From positions 1-64,000 of the forward strand of contig LSIG01000110.1 in the NCBI GenBank assembly GCA_001556125.1: 64,000 bases of DNA, given 5' to 3'. Positions within the stretch are counted from its first letter, which is position 1. The number at the start of each line of letters is the position of its first letter. The stretch is from Rhizobiales bacterium CCH10-E5 (lineage in GTDB: Bacteria > Pseudomonadota > Alphaproteobacteria > Rhizobiales > Beijerinckiaceae). Positions 11,841-41,724 of this stretch are shown one piece after another. The notes under the pieces are model-generated. The model was given only the letters and a program-made list of their open reading frames with translations, did not search any database and was not told where the DNA came from. The position numbers and the translations under genes were made by a program.

Positions 11841-11855
11841 GAACACAACGCGAAC
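11841..11855. promoter_or_regulatory. SOS box 1 of the lexA promoter
   Basis: GAACACAACGCGAAC is a perfect GAAC-N7-GAAC direct repeat (GTTC-N7-GTTC on the other strand), the known LexA operator type of alphaproteobacteria. It lies 69 bp before the lexA ATG and fits autoregulation of lexA. Confidence 0.85.
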
Positions 11856-11923: not shown

Positions 11924-12664
11924 ATGCTGACACGCAAACAGTTCGAACTGCTTCGCTTCATCCATGAGCGCCTGCGCGAGAGCGGCGTCCCTCCCTCCTT
12001 CGACGAAATGAAGGACGCGCTCGACCTCAAGTCGAAATCCGGCATCCACCGCCTGATCATGGCCCTCGAGGAACGCGGCTTCATCCGCCGCCTGCCGAAC
12101 CGGGCACGGGCGCTCGAAGTGATCAAGCTGCCGGATGGCGCGGGTGGTGGCCTCCAGGGCGGCGCGCGCCGCTTCAATCCCTCCATCGTCCAGGGCGGGC
12201 TCGGCAAGGAGACACCCTCGGCCAAGGATGGGCTGCCCGGCCGGGCACGCCCGGTCGAGGCGGTGCCAGAAGACGCCCGCAACACGATCGCGATCCCCGT
12301 CATGGGCCGCATCGCGGCGGGCACGCCGATCTCGGCGATCCAGAGCCGCAGCCACAGCGTCGCCCTCCCAGCCGACATGCTCGGCTCGGGCGAGCATTTC
12401 GCGCTGGAGGTCCGCGGCGACTCGATGGTCGAGGCCGGCATTCTCGACGGCGACACGGTGGTGATCCGGCGCCAGGACACCGCCAATACCGGCGATATCA
12501 TCGTCGCCCTGATCGACGACGAGGAGGCGACGCTGAAGCGGCTGCGCAAGCGGGGCTCCTCGATCGCGCTGGAGGCAGCCAATCCGGCTTACGAGACGCG
12601 GGTGCTGGGACCGGACCGGGTCAAGATCCAGGGTCGGCTTGTCAATCTGATGCGGCGCTACTGA
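11924..12664 (+). CDS. lexA: SOS response repressor LexA
   Basis: 246-residue transcriptional repressor and self-cleaving serine protease. The N-terminal winged HTH (residues 1-70) begins [21 protein letters not shown] linker of about 50 residues makes it longer than the 202-residue E. coli protein, as is usual in alphaproteobacteria. The Ala-Gly cleavage site lies in [10 protein letters not shown] near residue 131. The catalytic Ser lies in [13 protein letters not shown] near 166 and the Lys in EATLKRL near 204. RecA-stimulated autocleavage would derepress SOS genes. Two GTTC-N7-GTTC-type boxes precede it, and another perfect box at 39618 marks a second likely target. Confidence 0.97.
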
Positions 12665-18170: not shown

Positions 18171-18256
18171 ATTGTTTCAGATGATTGATCGCACGGCTGC
18201 AGGTGACGAAGCGCAGCCTCGCGCTAAAGTTCTCCAAACCCTCGGAGAACCGTCTC

Positions 18257-19246
18257 TTGTCCCATCCGCATGATCTCTCCCGGCGCGGCTTCCTCGCCGG
18301 CGCCTCGGCCCTGACCCTCGCCGGCGGGCAGGCACAGGCCCAGGCGGCCTTCCCCGCTCGCCCGATCAACCTGATCGTTCCTTTCGCCGCCGGCGGCTCC
18401 ACCGACATCGTCGCGCGTCTCGTCGGCCAGAAGATGGGCGAGCTGCTCGGCCAGTCGGTCGTGATCGAGAATCGCGCCGGCGCCGGCGGCAATGTCGGCT
18501 CGACCGCGGTCGCCCGCGCGACGCCGGATGGCTACACGATACTGATGGGGACGATCTCGACCCATGCCCTCAACCCGGCGATCCTGAAGACCGTCACCTT
18601 CGATCCGGTCAAGGACTTCACTCCGATCTCGCTGCTCGCGGTGGTGCCGAACGTCATGGTCGTGCATCCGAGCTTCCCGGCCAAGACCGTCCAGGAGGTC
18701 ATCGCGGTGCTGAAGGCCAATCCGGGCAAGTACTCCTACGCCTCCTCCGGCGTCGGCACGCCGCTGCACCTCTCCGGTGAGCTGTTCAAGTCGATCGGCG
18801 GCGTGCTGATGAATCACGTCCCCTATCGTGGCGCGGGCCCCGCCCTGAACGACGTCGTCGCGGGCGCGGTTCCGATCATGTTCGACAACCTGCCCTCCTC
18901 CGCCCAGTTCATCCGCAACGGCCAACTGCGCGCGATCGGCGTCACGACCAAGAACCGCGTTGCGTCCTTCCCGGATCTGCCGACGATCGCCGAGGGCGGT
19001 CTCGCCGGCTACGAGACCTATACTTGGAACGCGTTGTTCGGACCGGCGAAGATGCCGGCCGACATCGTGGCGAAGCTCAACAAGGCCGCGAACGACGCGC
19101 TGAAGGACGCCACGGTCAAGCAGCGCCTCAACGACGTCAGCGCCGAGATCGTCGGCTCGACGCCGGAGGCGCTGGGCGAGCACGTCAAGGTCGAGGTCGC
19201 CAAGTGGTTCCCGATCGCCAAGGCGTCGGGCGCCGCGCTCGAGTGA
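18257..19246 (+). CDS. Tripartite tricarboxylate transporter substrate-binding protein (Bug/TctC family)
   Basis: 329-residue periplasmic binding protein of the Bug family. The mature part has the classic pattern YPxRPI-like FPARPINLIVPFAAGGSTDI, then VVIENRAGAGGNVGS, DGYTILMG and VPYRGAGPALNDVVAG. The start is probably TTG 18257, with GGAGA 9 bases upstream, giving MSHPHDLSRRGFLAGASAL, a signal peptide with a twin-arginine-like SRRGFLAG motif and an AQAQA cleavage region. No TctA or TctB membrane subunits are nearby, so it is an orphan. Such orphans usually bind small organic acids. It sits between gltA and lpxB, interrupting an otherwise conserved gene order. Confidence 0.88.
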   Translation: MSHPHDLSRRGFLAGASALTLAGGQAQAQAAFPARPINLIVPFAAGGSTDIVARLVGQKMGELLGQSVVIENRAGAGGNVGSTAVARATPDGYTILMGTISTHALNPAILKTVTFDPVKDFTPISLLAVVPNVMVVHPSFPAKTVQEVIAVLKANPGKYSYASSGVGTPLHLSGELFKSIGGVLMNHVPYRGAGPALNDVVAGAVPIMFDNLPSSAQFIRNGQLRAIGVTTKNRVASFPDLPTIAEGGLAGYETYTWNALFGPAKMPADIVAKLNKAANDALKDATVKQRLNDVSAEIVGSTPEALGEHVKVEVAKWFPIAKASGAALE

Positions 19247-33428: not shown

Positions 33429-34439
33429 TCAGGCGTCGGCGAGTTCGCGCGCCTGGGCGACCCAGCCCTCGCGCTCGATCTTGCCACCGAGCTTCAGGTC
33501 GTGGTCGAGCTTGGTCACCTCGGCCGGCGAGGCGGCGGCGAGCTGCCAGAAGTGGAAAATGCCACCGTCGTTGAGCTTCTGCACGGCGTCCGGACCGGCG
33601 CCCGAGAGCTTGGTCAGGTCGTCCGGCGCGCCACGCGGCGCGGTCAGCAGCTCGAAGGCGACGCCCGCATCGGCGGCGGCCGGCTCGGCCAGCGCCTCCT
33701 CGACGAGCACCGGGGCCTCGGCGGCGCCGAGATCCACGCCCTGATCGCCCGAAGCGCGGGAGATGCCGTCGATCGCCGAGCGCGCGACGAGGTCGCAATA
33801 GAGCTGGATGGCGCGGCCGGCGTCGTCATTCGCCGGGACCGGGAAGGTGATGCCGTCCGGATCCGAGTTCGAGTCGATGATCGCGGCGACCGGGATGCCG
33901 AGGCGCTGGGCCTCCTTGATCGCGAGCGCTTCCTTGTTGGTGTCGATCACGAAGATCATGTCGGGCGTGCCGCCCATGTCCTTGATGCCGCCGAGCGCCT
34001 TCTCGAGCTTGTCGCGCTCGCGGGCGAGCATCAGGCGCTCCTTCTTGGTCAGGCCGCTGCCGCCGCCGGCGAGCAGCTCGTCGACCTTGCGCAGGCGCTG
34101 GATCGAGGCCGAAATCGTCTTCCAGTTGGTCAGCATGCCGCCGAGCCAGCGGGAGTTGACATAGTACTGGGCCGAGCGCTTCGCCGCATCGGCGATGGCA
34201 TCCTGCGCCTGGCGCTTCGTGCCGACGAAGAGCACGCGGCCGCCGCGGGCGACGGTGTCAGAGACCGCCTGCAGCGCGCGGGCCAGCATCGGCACCGACT
34301 GCGACAGGTCGAGAATGTGGATGTTGTTGCGCGTGCCGAAGATGTAGGGCGACATCTTCGGGTTCCAGCGATGAGCTTGGTGGCCGAAATGGGCACCGGC
34401 CTCGAGGAGCTGGCGCATGGAAAAATCAGGCAGAGCCAT
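33429..34439 (-). CDS. rpsB: 30S ribosomal protein S2 with C-terminal HhH-like extension
   Basis: 336-residue ribosomal protein S2. Residues 1 to about 235 are the normal S2 fold, with [36 protein letters not shown], and [19 protein letters not shown]. The protein is some 90 residues longer than E. coli S2 (241). An acidic Ala/Glu linker (about 240-262) leads into a C-terminal domain: [19 protein letters not shown], then GIFHFWQLA and [11 protein letters not shown]. This resembles the helix-hairpin-helix modules found in other extended alphaproteobacterial proteins. Such extended S2 proteins appear to be typical of this group. It heads the rpsB-tsf unit. Confidence 0.95.
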
Positions 34440-34600
34440 GGTGTCGATCGTCCTTCCGGTTGAGCCTCTGGGGTGCGAATGAACAGGGCATGAGCTGCCG
34501 CGTCACCGGAACGCCTCGAGAACGAGGCGATGCTCCCCATGTGGGATGGGCTGCGCCATACAGGGGAAGCGCCGCGAATGCAAGGCGCCCGCGCCGGCAA
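34440..34600 (-). promoter_or_regulatory. rpsB 5' leader with stem-loops
   Basis: Leader of rpsB, read on the minus strand. It contains a perfect 7-bp stem with a four-base loop at 34512-34529 (CGCCTCG/CGAGGCG) and a longer imperfect pairing between CTCCCCAT near 34531 and AGGGGAAGC near 34562. Bacterial S2 commonly represses its own mRNA through the leader, so these structures could be the target; that is inference. GGAAGGA lies before the rpsB ATG. Confidence 0.35.
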
Positions 34601-35887: not shown

Positions 35888-38800
35888 TCACCGGAGCTCG
35901 ACGCTGACCACACCCGGCGCCGCCCTCACCGCGTTGGCGATCTGCTGGTTGACCGGGTAGCGGCCGGGCAGCTCGATCTCGACCTCCTGGGCGCCGTCAT
36001 TCAGGATCATCACCAGCGCGATCTTGCCGTCGGCCTTGATGCCGTCGCTGCGCGGGCGGACGCGTTCGGCGATCGAGGCGAGCGCCTTGTCGTCGCGCAG
36101 ATAGACCAGCAGGTCCTGCTTCTGCCGGGCGGCGAGTTCGTCGAGCACCTCGACATCCTCGATGCGCGGGCGGACATCCTCGCCGTCGAGCACGGCCGAG
36201 AGGCGCAGGACCAGCGCCCGGCCCGGCTCCAGCAGGTCGCGGTAGCGCTGCAGTGCTTCCGAGAACAGGATCGCCTCGAACTGGCCGCTTGGATCGGACA
36301 GGTTGACGATGCCCATCTTGGAGCCGGATTTGGTGCGACGCTCGGAGCGGTCGATCACCGAGACCGCGACCTTGGCGACGCCGGTGCCGTTGGCGCGCAC
36401 GGTCTGGGCAAAATCGGCGAAGCGCTGGACGCGCAGCCGCTTCAAGACATGCTCATAGTCGTCCAGCGGGTGACCCGACAGGAAGAAGCCGACCGCATCG
36501 TGCTCGCGCTTCAGACGCTCGGCCGGCGCCCAGGGCTCGACCGGCGGAATCCGGAAGGCTTCCTGGACCGTGCCACCGCCAAAGAGCTCGGACTGGCCGC
36601 CGAGCGCAGCCTCCCGCGTGCGGTTCGAGAGCGCCAGCATGCCGTCGATCGCCGCCATGGCGCGGGCGCGCTCGGGCTCGAGCGCGTCGAGCGCGCCGGC
36701 CGCGATCAGCGCCTCGATGGTGCGGCGGTTGACGAGCTTGGTGTCGATGCGACGGGCAAAATCCGCGAGGTCGCGGAAGGGGCCGCCCGCGGCGCGCGCG
36801 GCGACGACCGACTCGACCGCGGCCCGGCCGACGCCCTTGATGGCGCCGAGCGCGTAGTGGATCGCGCCCTCATGCACGTCGAACTCGACGCCGGAGCGGT
36901 TGATCGCCGGCGGCAGCACCTTGATCCCAAGCCGTTCGGCATCGCGCCGGAATTCGGAGAGCTTGTCTGTATTGCCCATGTCGAGCGTCATGGACGCGGC
37001 GAGGAACTCGACCGGGTAATTCGCCTTGAGATAGGCGGTCTGGAAGGCAACGACCGCATAGGCCGCCGCATGGCTCTTGTTGAAGCCGTAGTCGGCGAAT
37101 TTCGCCAACAGATCGAAGATTTCGGAGGCCGTATCCTTGCTGATGCCGTTGGCGATCGCGCCCTTCACGAAGCGGTCGCGCTGGGCGTCCATCTCCGCCT
37201 TGATCTTCTTGCCCATGGCGCGGCGCAGCAGGTCGGCTTCGCCGAGCGAATAGCCCGAGAGCGCCTGCGCGACCTGCATCACCTGCTCCTGATAGACGAT
37301 GATGCCATGCGTCTCGGAGAGATAGGGAGCCATGCCGGGATGCAGATAGGTCGGCTCCTCCAGACCGAGCTTGCGGCGGCAATAGGTCGGGATGTTGTCC
37401 ATCGGGCCCGGTCGGTAGAGCGCGACCAGCGCGATGAGATCCTCGATGCGGTCCGCCTTCATCTCGACGAGGGCCTTGCGCATGCCCGCCGATTCCACCT
37501 GGAACACGCCGACCGTCTCGCCGCGCGCCAGCATGGCGTAGGTCGGCGGATCGTTAAAGGGCAGGCTCGCGAGGTCGATCTCGATACCTCGCTGGGCAAT
37601 GAGCTTCACGGCGGTCGTCAGGGTCGTCAGCGTCTTGAGGCCGAGAAAGTCGAACTTCACCAGCCCGGCCTGCTCGACCCATTTCATGTTGAACTGGGTG
37701 ACGCGCATGCCCGTGCGCGGATCGACCGAAAGCGCCACGAGCTGTTCGAGCGGGCGGTCGCCGATGACGACACCGGCGGCGTGGGTGGAAGCGTGGCGGT
37801 GCAGCCCCTCGAGCTTCTGGCCGATCTCGAGCAGGCGGGCGACGATCGGCTCCTCCTGCGCCGCCTGCTGGAGCTTGGGCTCGCCCTCGATGGCGTCCTT
37901 CAGCGAGATCGGCTTGGCCGGGTTCTGCGGGACGAGCTTGGTCAGCCGATCGACCTGGCCATAGGGCATTTCCAGCACGCGGCCGACGTCGCGCAGCACG
38001 CCACGGGCGAGCAGCGTGCCGAAGGTGATGATCTGGGCGACGCGCTCCTCGCCATAGCGATGCTTGACGTAGTCGATCACCTCTTCGCGCCGGTTCTGGC
38101 AGAAGTCGATGTCGAAGTCCGGCATCGAGACGCGGTCGGGGTTGAGGAAGCGCTCGAACAGCAGGCCGAAGCGCAGCGGATCGACGTCGGTGATCGTCAG
38201 CGCATAGGCGACGAGCGAACCCGCGCCGGAGCCGCGGCCGGGTCCGACGGGGATGTCGTGATCCTTGGCCCATTTGATGAAGTCCGAGACGATCAGGAAG
38301 TAGCCCGGGAATTTCATCCGGGTGATGATCGACAGCTCGAAATCGAGCCGCTTCTCGTAATCCTCGACGCTGTAGCCCTCGGCCGGACCGTGCTTGGCGA
38401 GGCGGGCGGCCAGACCCGCCTTGGCCTGGAGTTCCAGCTCCTCCGCTTCGTCGCGCCCCTCTTCGCCGAAGCGCGGCAGGATGGGTTTGCGCAGGCCGAC
38501 GCGCCAGGTGCAGCGCATCGCAATCTCGACGGTGGCGGCGAGCGCCTCCGGCAGATCGGCGAAGCGGCGCTTCATCTCGGCGCGGCTGGTGAAATAGTGC
38601 TCGGGCGTGACGCGGCGGCGCTCGCCATCCGAGACCAGGCGCCCGGCGGCCACCGCCAGCAGCGCGTCATGGGCGTCGTAATCGGCGGGCTTCGCGAAGA
38701 AGGGTTCGTTGGTCGCGACGATCGGCAGGTCAGAATCATAGGCGAGCTGGAGCAGATGCGCCTCGATCGCCGCATCGCCCTCGCCCCCGTGCCGCTGGAT

Positions 38801-39367
38801 CTCGACATACAGCCGGTCGCCGAAGATGCGCGCCAGCGTCGCGAGCCGCGTCCGGGCCTGAGGCAGCTGGTTGTTGCGCAGCGCGAGGTCGATCGGCCCC
38901 CCGCGTCCGCCGGTCAGAGCGATCAGCCCCTCGTGATGGGCGGCGAGCGCGTCGAAATTGGAGACCGGCTGGCCGCTGCCGCCGCTGGCGAGCGCGGCCT
39001 GGGTCACCAGCTTCATCAGATTGCCGTAGCCGGCCTCGTTCATCGCCAGCAGCACGATGTGGGGCGGGACCTGCGGCAGCGCCCTGCCCCGGCCGGATTC
39101 GGTCTCGTCGCCGCAATCGAGCGAGAGCTGGACGCCCGCGATCGGCTGCACGCCAACGCCGGTCATCTTCTCGGCGAATTCGAGCGCGCCGAACAGGTTG
39201 TTGGTGTCGGTCAGTGCCAGAGCCGGCTGGCCGTCCGCCGCCGCCATCTTGGCCAGCGTCCCGACCATCAGGGCGCCTTCGAGCAGCGAATAGCTCGAAT
39301 GGACATGGAGATGGACGAAGCCGACCTCGGAGAGAACGCGGCTGTCGTCGGGTTCGCGTGCCATCAT
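35888..39367 (-). CDS. dnaE: DNA polymerase III alpha subunit
   Basis: 1159-residue replicative C-family polymerase. The N-terminal PHP domain starts FVHLHVHSSYSLLEGAL. The polymerase active site includes PGRGSGAGSLVAYAL and the metal-binding MPDFDIDFCQNRREEV near residue 415. HhH/OB regions follow, with FADYGFNKSHAAAYAVVAFQ. Length matches DnaE1 rather than the error-prone DnaE2/ImuC, which is shorter and usually clustered with imuA and imuB. GCAGGCGG lies before the ATG. The gene is 104 bp downstream of a tiny SOS-box-controlled gene, with no strong terminator between. Confidence 0.97.
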   Translation of the reverse strand: MMAREPDDSRVLSEVGFVHLHVHSSYSLLEGALMVGTLAKMAAADGQPALALTDTNNLFGALEFAEKMTGVGVQPIAGVQLSLDCGDETESGRGRALPQVPPHIVLLAMNEAGYGNLMKLVTQAALASGGSGQPVSNFDALAAHHEGLIALTGGRGGPIDLALRNNQLPQARTRLATLARIFGDRLYVEIQRHGGEGDAAIEAHLLQLAYDSDLPIVATNEPFFAKPADYDAHDALLAVAAGRLVSDGERRRVTPEHYFTSRAEMKRRFADLPEALAATVEIAMRCTWRVGLRKPILPRFGEEGRDEAEELELQAKAGLAARLAKHGPAEGYSVEDYEKRLDFELSIITRMKFPGYFLIVSDFIKWAKDHDIPVGPGRGSGAGSLVAYALTITDVDPLRFGLLFERFLNPDRVSMPDFDIDFCQNRREEVIDYVKHRYGEERVAQIITFGTLLARGVLRDVGRVLEMPYGQVDRLTKLVPQNPAKPISLKDAIEGEPKLQQAAQEEPIVARLLEIGQKLEGLHRHASTHAAGVVIGDRPLEQLVALSVDPRTGMRVTQFNMKWVEQAGLVKFDFLGLKTLTTLTTAVKLIAQRGIEIDLASLPFNDPPTYAMLARGETVGVFQVESAGMRKALVEMKADRIEDLIALVALYRPGPMDNIPTYCRRKLGLEEPTYLHPGMAPYLSETHGIIVYQEQVMQVAQALSGYSLGEADLLRRAMGKKIKAEMDAQRDRFVKGAIANGISKDTASEIFDLLAKFADYGFNKSHAAAYAVVAFQTAYLKANYPVEFLAASMTLDMGNTDKLSEFRRDAERLGIKVLPPAINRSGVEFDVHEGAIHYALGAIKGVGRAAVESVVAARAAGGPFRDLADFARRIDTKLVNRRTIEALIAAGALDALEPERARAMAAIDGMLALSNRTREAALGGQSELFGGGTVQEAFRIPPVEPWAPAERLKREHDAVGFFLSGHPLDDYEHVLKRLRVQRFADFAQTVRANGTGVAKVAVSVIDRSERRTKSGSKMGIVNLSDPSGQFEAILFSEALQRYRDLLEPGRALVLRLSAVLDGEDVRPRIEDVEVLDELAARQKQDLLVYLRDDKALASIAERVRPRSDGIKADGKIALVMILNDGAQEVEIELPGRYPVNQQIANAVRAAPGVVSVELR

Positions 39368-39471: not shown

Positions 39472-39582
39472 TCAGATGCCGGGGGCGCAGAACAGCGCCG
39501 CCCAGACCCAGACCATGCCGAGGAACAGCCCGAGCGATGCGATCTCGGCGATACCGGCGACGACTTTCCGCGCGACGATCAT
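39472..39582 (-). CDS. 36-residue single-span membrane peptide, predicted LexA-regulated
   Basis: Small gene encoding MIVARKVVAGIAEIASLG followed by the hydrophobic stretch LFLGMVWVWAALF and ending CAPGI: a short basic N-terminus and one transmembrane helix. GAGGG lies seven bases before the ATG. A perfect SOS box (39618-39632) sits exactly between a -35 TTGACG and a -10 TAAAAC on the minus strand, giving a predicted leader of about 22 nt. Caulobacter SidA shows that SOS-induced small membrane proteins can block division in alphaproteobacteria; a comparable role here is inference from size, topology and control, not homology. It lies between lolD and dnaE. An in-frame upstream ATG at 39675 precedes the promoter and is rejected. 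Confidence 0.7.
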   Translation of the reverse strand: MIVARKVVAGIAEIASLGLFLGMVWVWAALFCAPGI

Positions 39583-39611
39583 GGTCCAGCCCTCATGTTT
39601 ACGATATGTCC

Positions 39612-39639
39612 GTTTTAGTTCCTTATTTGTTCTCGTCAA
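39612..39639 (-). promoter_or_regulatory. LexA-controlled promoter (SOS box within -35/-10 spacer)
   Basis: On the minus strand TTGACG (39639-39634) and TAAAAC (39617-39612) are 16 bp apart. The spacer contains GAACAAATAAGGAAC (39632-39618), a perfect GAAC-N7-GAAC SOS box of the alphaproteobacterial type, like the one before lexA. LexA bound here would cover the promoter completely. Confidence 0.8.
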
Positions 39640-39720: not shown

Positions 39721-40419
<699 letters not shown>

Positions 40420-40425
40420 GCGCCT

Positions 40426-41724
40426 TCAGCCCATCCTGAGCGCCTGGACAGGGTCGAGCCGCGCCGCCTTCCAGGCCGGATAGAGGGTCGCCAGCAGCGA
40501 CAGCACGAGCGCCATCACGACGACGCTGGTGACCTCGCCCCAGTCGATCACGGATGGAATGTCGCTCAGGAAGCGCACCGTCGGGTCCCAGAGATTGGCC
40601 CCGGTGACCCAGTTCAGCGCGGCCATGATCGACTTGATGTTCTTGGCGAAGACGATCCCGAGGGCGAGGCCCGCTATCGTACCGATGACGCCGATCGCCG
40701 CCCCCGTGATCAGGAAGACGCGCATCACCGTGCCGCTGGTGGCGCCCATGGTGCGCATGATGGCGATGTCGGCGGTCTTGTCCTTCACCAGCATGATCAG
40801 GCCGGAGACGATGTTCAGTGCCGCGACCAGCACGATCAGCGTGAGGATGATGAACATCACGTTCCGCTCGACCTCGAGCGCGTTGAAGAAGCTGCGGTTG
40901 CGCTGGCGCCAGTCGGAGAGGACGAGCGGGCGCGGCGCATCCGCCTCGATGGCGTCGCGCACCACCTGGGTGCGGTCCGGATTGTCGACGAAGATCTCTA
41001 TGACGTTCACGTCGCCGTCGCGATTGAAATAGGCCTGCGCCTCGCCGAGCGGCATGAAAACGAAGGAGGCGTCGAACTCGGTCATGCCGATCTCGAAGAC
41101 CGCCTGGATCGGATAGGCCTTGATGCGCGGCGCGGTGCCGAAGGGCGTCGAAGCCCCCTTCGGGGAGATGATGTTGATGGAATCGCCGACCTGCAGCCCG
41201 AGCGAATCCGCCAGCCGCTTGCCGACGGCAACGCCGCCGGCGGTGTCGAAGCCGTCGAGCGTACCGCGCCGGACATTGCCCCCGATGAAGGGAATGGCCT
41301 TGATGTCGGCCTCGCGGATGCCGCGAACGAGCACGCCGCCATTGCCCGTCTGTGACGAGGCGAGCGCCTGCCCCTCCACCAGCGGGATCGCCATCTTGAT
41401 GCCGGGAATCGAGCGCAGCCGCTGCGACACGACGTCGTAATCGTCGAGCGGGCGATCGATCGGCGTCGCGAAGATGTGGCCGTTCACGCCGACGATCTTC
41501 TCGAGCAGTTCTTTCCGGAAGCCGTTCATCACCGACATCACGATGATCAGCGTCGCGACGCCGAGCAGGATCCCAAGGAAGGAAAAACCGGCGATGACGG
41601 AGACGAAGCCCTCACGCCGCCGCGTGCGCAGATAGCGCCCGGCGAGGAGCCATTCGAAGCCGGCGAAGGGTCGTGTGCCGCTCGGTGCCTCGCCCTGACG
41701 GTCGGTTTCTGTGGCGACGCTCAC
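40426..41724 (-). CDS. lolC: Lipoprotein-releasing system transmembrane protein LolC/LolE
   Basis: 432-residue inner-membrane permease with one N-terminal helix (around residue 45-70, [20 protein letters not shown]), a large periplasmic domain (about 75-270), and three C-terminal helices with the FtsX-type fold. It begins with the conserved [21 protein letters not shown] single LolC/E-type gene is present, which suggests a homodimer of the LolF kind, in contrast to E. coli LolC plus LolE; a second copy outside the window is possible. The start is GTG, overlapping the proS stop by 4 bp. Confidence 0.93.

Follow-up and report, generated by a model that had tools for sequence, protein, structure and literature searches.

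A putative LexA-repressed one-helix membrane peptide gene directly before dnaE in a Rhizobiales bacterium, probably a Bosea-lineage counterpart of Caulobacter sidA

What is the function of a gene of only 36 codons that is placed between a LexA-type operator and the gene for the replicative DNA polymerase? The question is raised by contig LSIG01000110.1 of Rhizobiales bacterium CCH10-E5, of which positions 1 to 64,000, hereafter the window, were analysed. On the minus strand, an ATG at 39582 opens a frame that extends to 39472 (stop codon 39474-39472 included) and encodes the peptide MIVARKVVAGIAEIASLGLFLGMVWVWAALFCAPGI with one hydrophobic helix. Upstream lie the ribosome-binding site GAGGG (39590..39594), the -10 hexamer TAAAAC (39612..39617) and the -35 hexamer TTGACG (39634..39639), all on the minus strand, and the 16 nt between the two hexamers hold the perfect GAAC-N7-GAAC box GAACAAATAAGGAAC (39618..39632, minus strand), which is kept in relatives. 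This arrangement of box, promoter, ribosome site and frame had been described in a first-pass annotation and is confirmed on the minus strand, as is the gap of 104 nt that separates the stop codon from the start, at 39367, of dnaE for the DNA polymerase III alpha subunit (35888..39367, minus strand; Pfam), the next gene downstream in the same direction. The upstream neighbour is an ABC transporter ATPase gene (39721..40419, minus strand; Pfam ABC_tran), which we take, also from gene order, to be LolD-like, and likewise the adjoining ORF 40426-41724 presumably encodes LolC.

The same box type was said to precede lexA, and a perfect box indeed occupies 11841-11855 and ends 68 nt before a gene on the plus strand (11924..12664) that is identified as lexA by the Pfam families LexA_DNA_bind and Peptidase_S24. 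The window contains four perfect boxes against 1.17 expected from shuffles, the earlier estimate having been about two chance occurrences per 64 kb; when sites with one mismatch are counted, 36 against 34.8 expected, there is no excess. The two other perfect boxes, one at 34509-34523 with a GC-rich spacer about 70 nt before an ORF on the minus strand (33429-34439) that we take to encode ribosomal protein S2, the other at 18869-18883 inside a coding frame on the plus strand (18185-19246) that is presumably TctC-like, are probably due to chance. A scan for sigma-70-type promoters reported none above its own cut-off at the peptide promoter, and the promoter call therefore rests on conservation.

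In order to follow the unit through relatives, GTDB contigs were scanned with the DnaE N-terminus, which gave 80 loci, mostly from Bosea and Methylobacterium, with Xanthobacteraceae, Chelatococcus, Maritalea, Marinicauda and others also represented. A box with no or one mismatch and a hydrophobic membrane frame of 30-36 aa precede dnaE in 72 of the 80, the eight loci without them being L031, L032, L037, L039, L040, L041, L046 and L058. Among 24 aligned Bosea-type sequences, ATTGAC at the -35 position and the first TA of the -10 hexamer, for which the relatives' consensus is TAAAnT, are invariant (24/24). Substitution patterns distinguish the reading frames as well: for 29 distinct Bosea-type sequences, the true frame has a pN/pS of 0.306 and the two shifted frames reach 1.41 and 2.10, with corresponding values of 0.370, 1.25 and 1.79 for 19 distinct sequences of the Methylobacterium type. 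By this measure the 36-codon frame is a real gene, under purifying selection in the true frame only.

The unit was also sought across the class, where DnaE was matched in 177 of 190 genomes and 110 loci were examined, namely the best 30 of the 177 and 80 hand-picked from the other 147, most small genomes being omitted. Box and peptide stand together at dnaE in 19 of these 110 loci, and the same rule applied to the other strand and further upstream returned 0/110 in each case; the unit is widespread, yet absent at dnaE or missed by the search rule in most of the sampled class loci. A box-like site and an open frame might have met by mere coincidence, as perfect boxes arise about once per 64 kb, but a perfect box lies at most 90 nt upstream of the frame in 59 of the 72 loci against 0.45 expected (an expectation based on how often the box occurs in these loci, with the boxes in question counted), the selection is frame-specific and both controls are empty. 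Chance is refuted by this conservation and retains practically no probability.

Independent of gene context, a profile built from 22 Hyphomicrobiales peptides, that of the window included, was searched against 199 genomes of the order, of which 42 matched at E 0.01 or better. For 30 genomes, some of them near kin of profile members (L287 is the genome of L001), the best match was inspected, and a perfect box is found no more than 260 nt upstream in 28 of the 30 and dnaE downstream in the same direction likewise in 28. The 157 genomes without a profile match may lack the unit or hold copies too divergent to score. Box and frame conservation, selection, the promoter alignment and this blind search strongly support the proposal that the locus encodes a small membrane peptide under LexA control, as predicted from its sequence.

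The operator itself is in part duplicated. In 10 of the 80 loci (L009, L010, L016, L019, L021-L023, L026, L029 and L033), the perfect box occurs twice at a distance of 21 bp, or roughly two turns of the helix, and 21 bp is also the commonest spacing among relaxed box sites. Such a row of four GAAC half-sites, spaced by about one turn, points to binding by paired LexA dimers. The window has a second box-like site, GGACATATCGTAAAC (39597..39611, minus strand), which was overlooked in the first-pass annotation; it lies 21 bp downstream of the perfect box, differs from the consensus at two positions and appears to be a decayed second copy.

The proximity to dnaE invites another explanation, that box and promoter mainly serve the polymerase gene, with the frame as a leader and the transcript raising the level of replicative polymerase during the SOS response. 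Such readthrough had been proposed on the basis of the 104 bp without a clear terminator; indeed no terminator was found between the peptide gene and dnaE, and the RNA fold of the 104-nt gap is no better than that of shuffles (z -0.11), with nothing terminator-like standing out. Against this, the distance from peptide to dnaE ranges from 43 to 485 nt across relatives, the frame is under selection at the protein level, and the unit is not bound to dnaE. Four Methylobacterium genomes without the unit at dnaE carry it intact and with a perfect box at a site beyond the 13-kb dnaE locus; in two further genomes, used as controls because they have the unit at dnaE, the search recovered it there. Of the four, the one looked at in detail (L275) has it next to an OmpA-family gene. 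In Salinarimonas (L281), a weaker match (E 3e-4) consists of a 45-codon frame with a perfect box beside a lolD-like gene, about 90 kb from dnaE. No convincing copy was obtained from two of the seven genomes searched, those of L046 and L058. On the relocated units in five genomes, readthrough into dnaE was rejected as the conserved purpose, and service to dnaE as the main role is very improbable; readthrough may occur as a side effect in the window. In L275-L278 and L281, box and peptide thus lie apart from dnaE as a single piece.

Which protein does the gene then encode? The AlphaFold model is a single helix of residues 2-32 with a mean pLDDT of 92.4, which, judging from hydropathy, would span the membrane. 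The peptide matched no family in Pfam or NCBIfam, and ten database relatives are without names or labelled hypothetical. Caulobacter SidA, an SOS-induced membrane inhibitor of division, had been cited as a functional precedent with no homology claimed, and the slot before dnaE brings the two closer than this. At a Caulobacter locus, one of 50 dnaE loci examined in the order of Marinicauda, a box-preceded 29-aa frame (P0011) stands directly before dnaE in the same direction and is SidA according to the curated NCBIfam model NF033228 (72.4 bits, cut-off 35); a match to this SidA is found in 72 of 75 genomes of its genus. Across nine chosen genomes the model exceeds its cut-off in 3/3 of Caulobacter type and in 0/6 others, Bosea included, and across 14 control genomes it does so in one, with any match in seven, Caulobacter vibrioides among them. 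On the other side of sidA lies a divergent gene for an inosine-uridine nucleoside hydrolase. Excerpts of published work list sidA as CCNA_02004 (PMC11034885), the nucleoside hydrolase as CCNA_02005 (PMC3667746) and dnaE as CC1926 (PMC1839093); the order in the DNA and the locus numbers agree, and sidA is thus directly before dnaE in Caulobacter.

Common descent was examined at the level of the peptides. The window peptide has no match above 35 bits to NF033228, and neither has the model any match among the 31 members of set A1; in set A6 it matched one of 25 members, another Hyphomicrobiales peptide, at 13.2 bits (E 0.067). A Caulobacter-only profile gives the window peptide -2.2 bits, a score that 82% of controls equal or surpass, and direct similarity between SidA and the window peptide is rejected on this ground. 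The same profile places 7 of 54 Hyphomicrobiales peptides above 99% of controls; for this test the peptide sets were hand-picked without near-duplicates: the 19 positive class loci contributed 17, the duplicates L165 and L176 being set aside, L167 is represented by one of its two frames, and 14 peptides represent the Marinicauda-order loci other than the Caulobacter type.

A bridge is provided by peptides of the Xanthobacteraceae type. A profile of nine of them scores the window peptide at 21.5 bits, the best of 821 membrane controls reaching 6.2 bits, and separates Caulobacter SidA from controls with an AUC of 0.993, 9 of 13 SidAs lying above 99% of controls. With the Bosea-type profile this holds for 1/13, with the Methylobacterium-type profile for 0/13 and with a joint Bosea and Xanthobacteraceae-type profile for 5/13. 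The 821 controls are hydrophobic segments of stop-to-stop stretches of at least 250 aa in six frames and so are not only real genes; some contain the peptide's own frame, and one reaches 65 bits in the Methylobacterium test. Of a further 17 Hyphomicrobiales peptides, a SidA profile ranks five above 99% of the shuffled as well as of the membrane controls, but not the other 12; in the reverse test, 99% of shuffles are outscored by 4 of 13 SidAs and 99% of membrane controls by 5 of 13. Profile-profile comparison by hhalign yields P values of 0.003, 0.0013 and 0.00096 at low probabilities of 10, 18 and 22%, and a BLASTP comparison of SidA with the best of the bridging peptides returned nothing. 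SidA and several Hyphomicrobiales peptides have in common an E-x-x-A-L-x-S-x-x-x-F core with equal spacing, of which the window peptide retains only S and F. The Xanthobacteraceae-type peptides may thus link the window peptide with SidA, as moderate evidence of descent given so few residues, and the remainder of the case is made by the slot, the shared direction, the box type and the peptide size.

Single hydrophobic helices converge easily, and an SOS-induced peptide might act on another membrane target, by depolarising or protecting the membrane or by reducing growth in the manner of small type I toxins, in which case a shared sidA slot would not imply a shared target. The short, fast-changing single helices fit such a role, as do the missing SidA-model match, the weak direct similarity and a C-terminal tail that in Bosea-type peptides is longer than that of SidA and usually contains proline. 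A slot and box type identical to those of sidA, the bridging sequences and the recurring, equally spaced core in other Hyphomicrobiales peptides speak against it, and we regard a different target as rather unlikely.

The reading best matched by the evidence is that the small membrane peptide encoded here is under LexA repression, is the Bosea-lineage counterpart of SidA and serves as an SOS-induced division inhibitor probably acting via FtsW; by analogy, this reading as a whole appears quite probable. Of the functions suggested earlier, a delay of division is thereby the best supported, on the analogy with SidA, while an SOS readthrough into dnaE as a conserved function did not hold. Both peptides belong to genes placed directly before dnaE under GAAC-N7-GAAC LexA boxes and consist of about 30 residues with one helix; they differ in size, 36 residues against 29 for SidA, and in the neighbour on the other side, a lolD-like gene in the window and the nucleoside hydrolase gene at sidA. 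SidA is described, in the part of PMC4211646 consulted here, as a 29-aa inner-membrane protein acting through FtsW, an action that changes in FtsW or FtsI overcome, and an excerpt of a 2026 paper models it with low confidence at transmembrane helix 7 of FtsW (PMC13396833). The division-inhibitor function would be carried over from this one studied species.

In the undamaged cell, transcription would be blocked by LexA on one or both boxes, which extend over the -35/-10 region and the likely start site. Upon DNA damage, RecA-driven self-cleavage of LexA would free the promoter, and the induced 36-residue single-helix peptide would insert into the inner membrane and arrest division by holding the late divisome inactive, most likely at the FtsW member of the FtsW/FtsI/FtsN complex, until LexA has re-accumulated. 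Similar brakes have been described. Caulobacter DidA is, as proposed for the window peptide, a damage-induced single-helix inhibitor of the late divisome, but with 71 aa it is twice as long, binds FtsN, is encoded by a different gene (CCNA03212) and, unlike a gene with a LexA box, is induced independently of SOS through DriD (PMC4211646, in part). Among Gram-positive bacteria, YneA, SosA and ChiZ are damage-induced small membrane inhibitors that act late in division, YneA on FtsW, and SosA and ChiZ according to low-confidence models (excerpts of PMC13396833); YneA and ChiZ carry a LysM domain and belong to other lineages, and the likeness is drawn without a claim of relationship.

Among the open-licence papers listed, there is no earlier description of SidA relatives outside Caulobacter or of a LexA-controlled peptide before dnaE. 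It seems fairly likely that SidA belongs, as one branch, to an old and rapidly evolving family of one-helix division brakes that are under LexA control, are for the most part unannotated and precede dnaE in a large part of the Alphaproteobacteria, with a range, as part of that reading, of Hyphomicrobiales, Caulobacterales with Maricaulales and scattered others. If so, these lineages would have in common an ancestral division checkpoint of the SOS response that is separate from SulA. The peptides are short enough for annotation to miss and could be found by the simple rule of conserved slot and box. The natural set of variants would allow mapping of how a helix of about 30 residues could inhibit FtsW, and one-gene tests are possible in many laboratory species.

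The order of Marinicauda illustrates the diversity at this slot. DnaE was matched in 149 of its 150 genomes, and 50 dnaE loci were examined, the 30 with the highest DnaE similarity, among which L081 duplicates L075, and 20 that we selected, mostly from large genomes; 33 hold a box and a membrane frame, nine have perfect boxes without such a frame under the rule (L084, L085, L086, L089, L091, L093, L094, L095 and L099) and eight have neither. At the nine boxed loci, the product may be another one or may have diverged further. Six loci (L103-L106, L108 and L110) carry MAQLQDAAAFAAILAFTLMAWGWGAVIG, a variant of 28 aa, or close copies of it; one box was found in L108, and in the five others the frame follows two boxes 16 bp apart, one with a single mismatch and one perfect, a spacing unlike that of the Bosea type.
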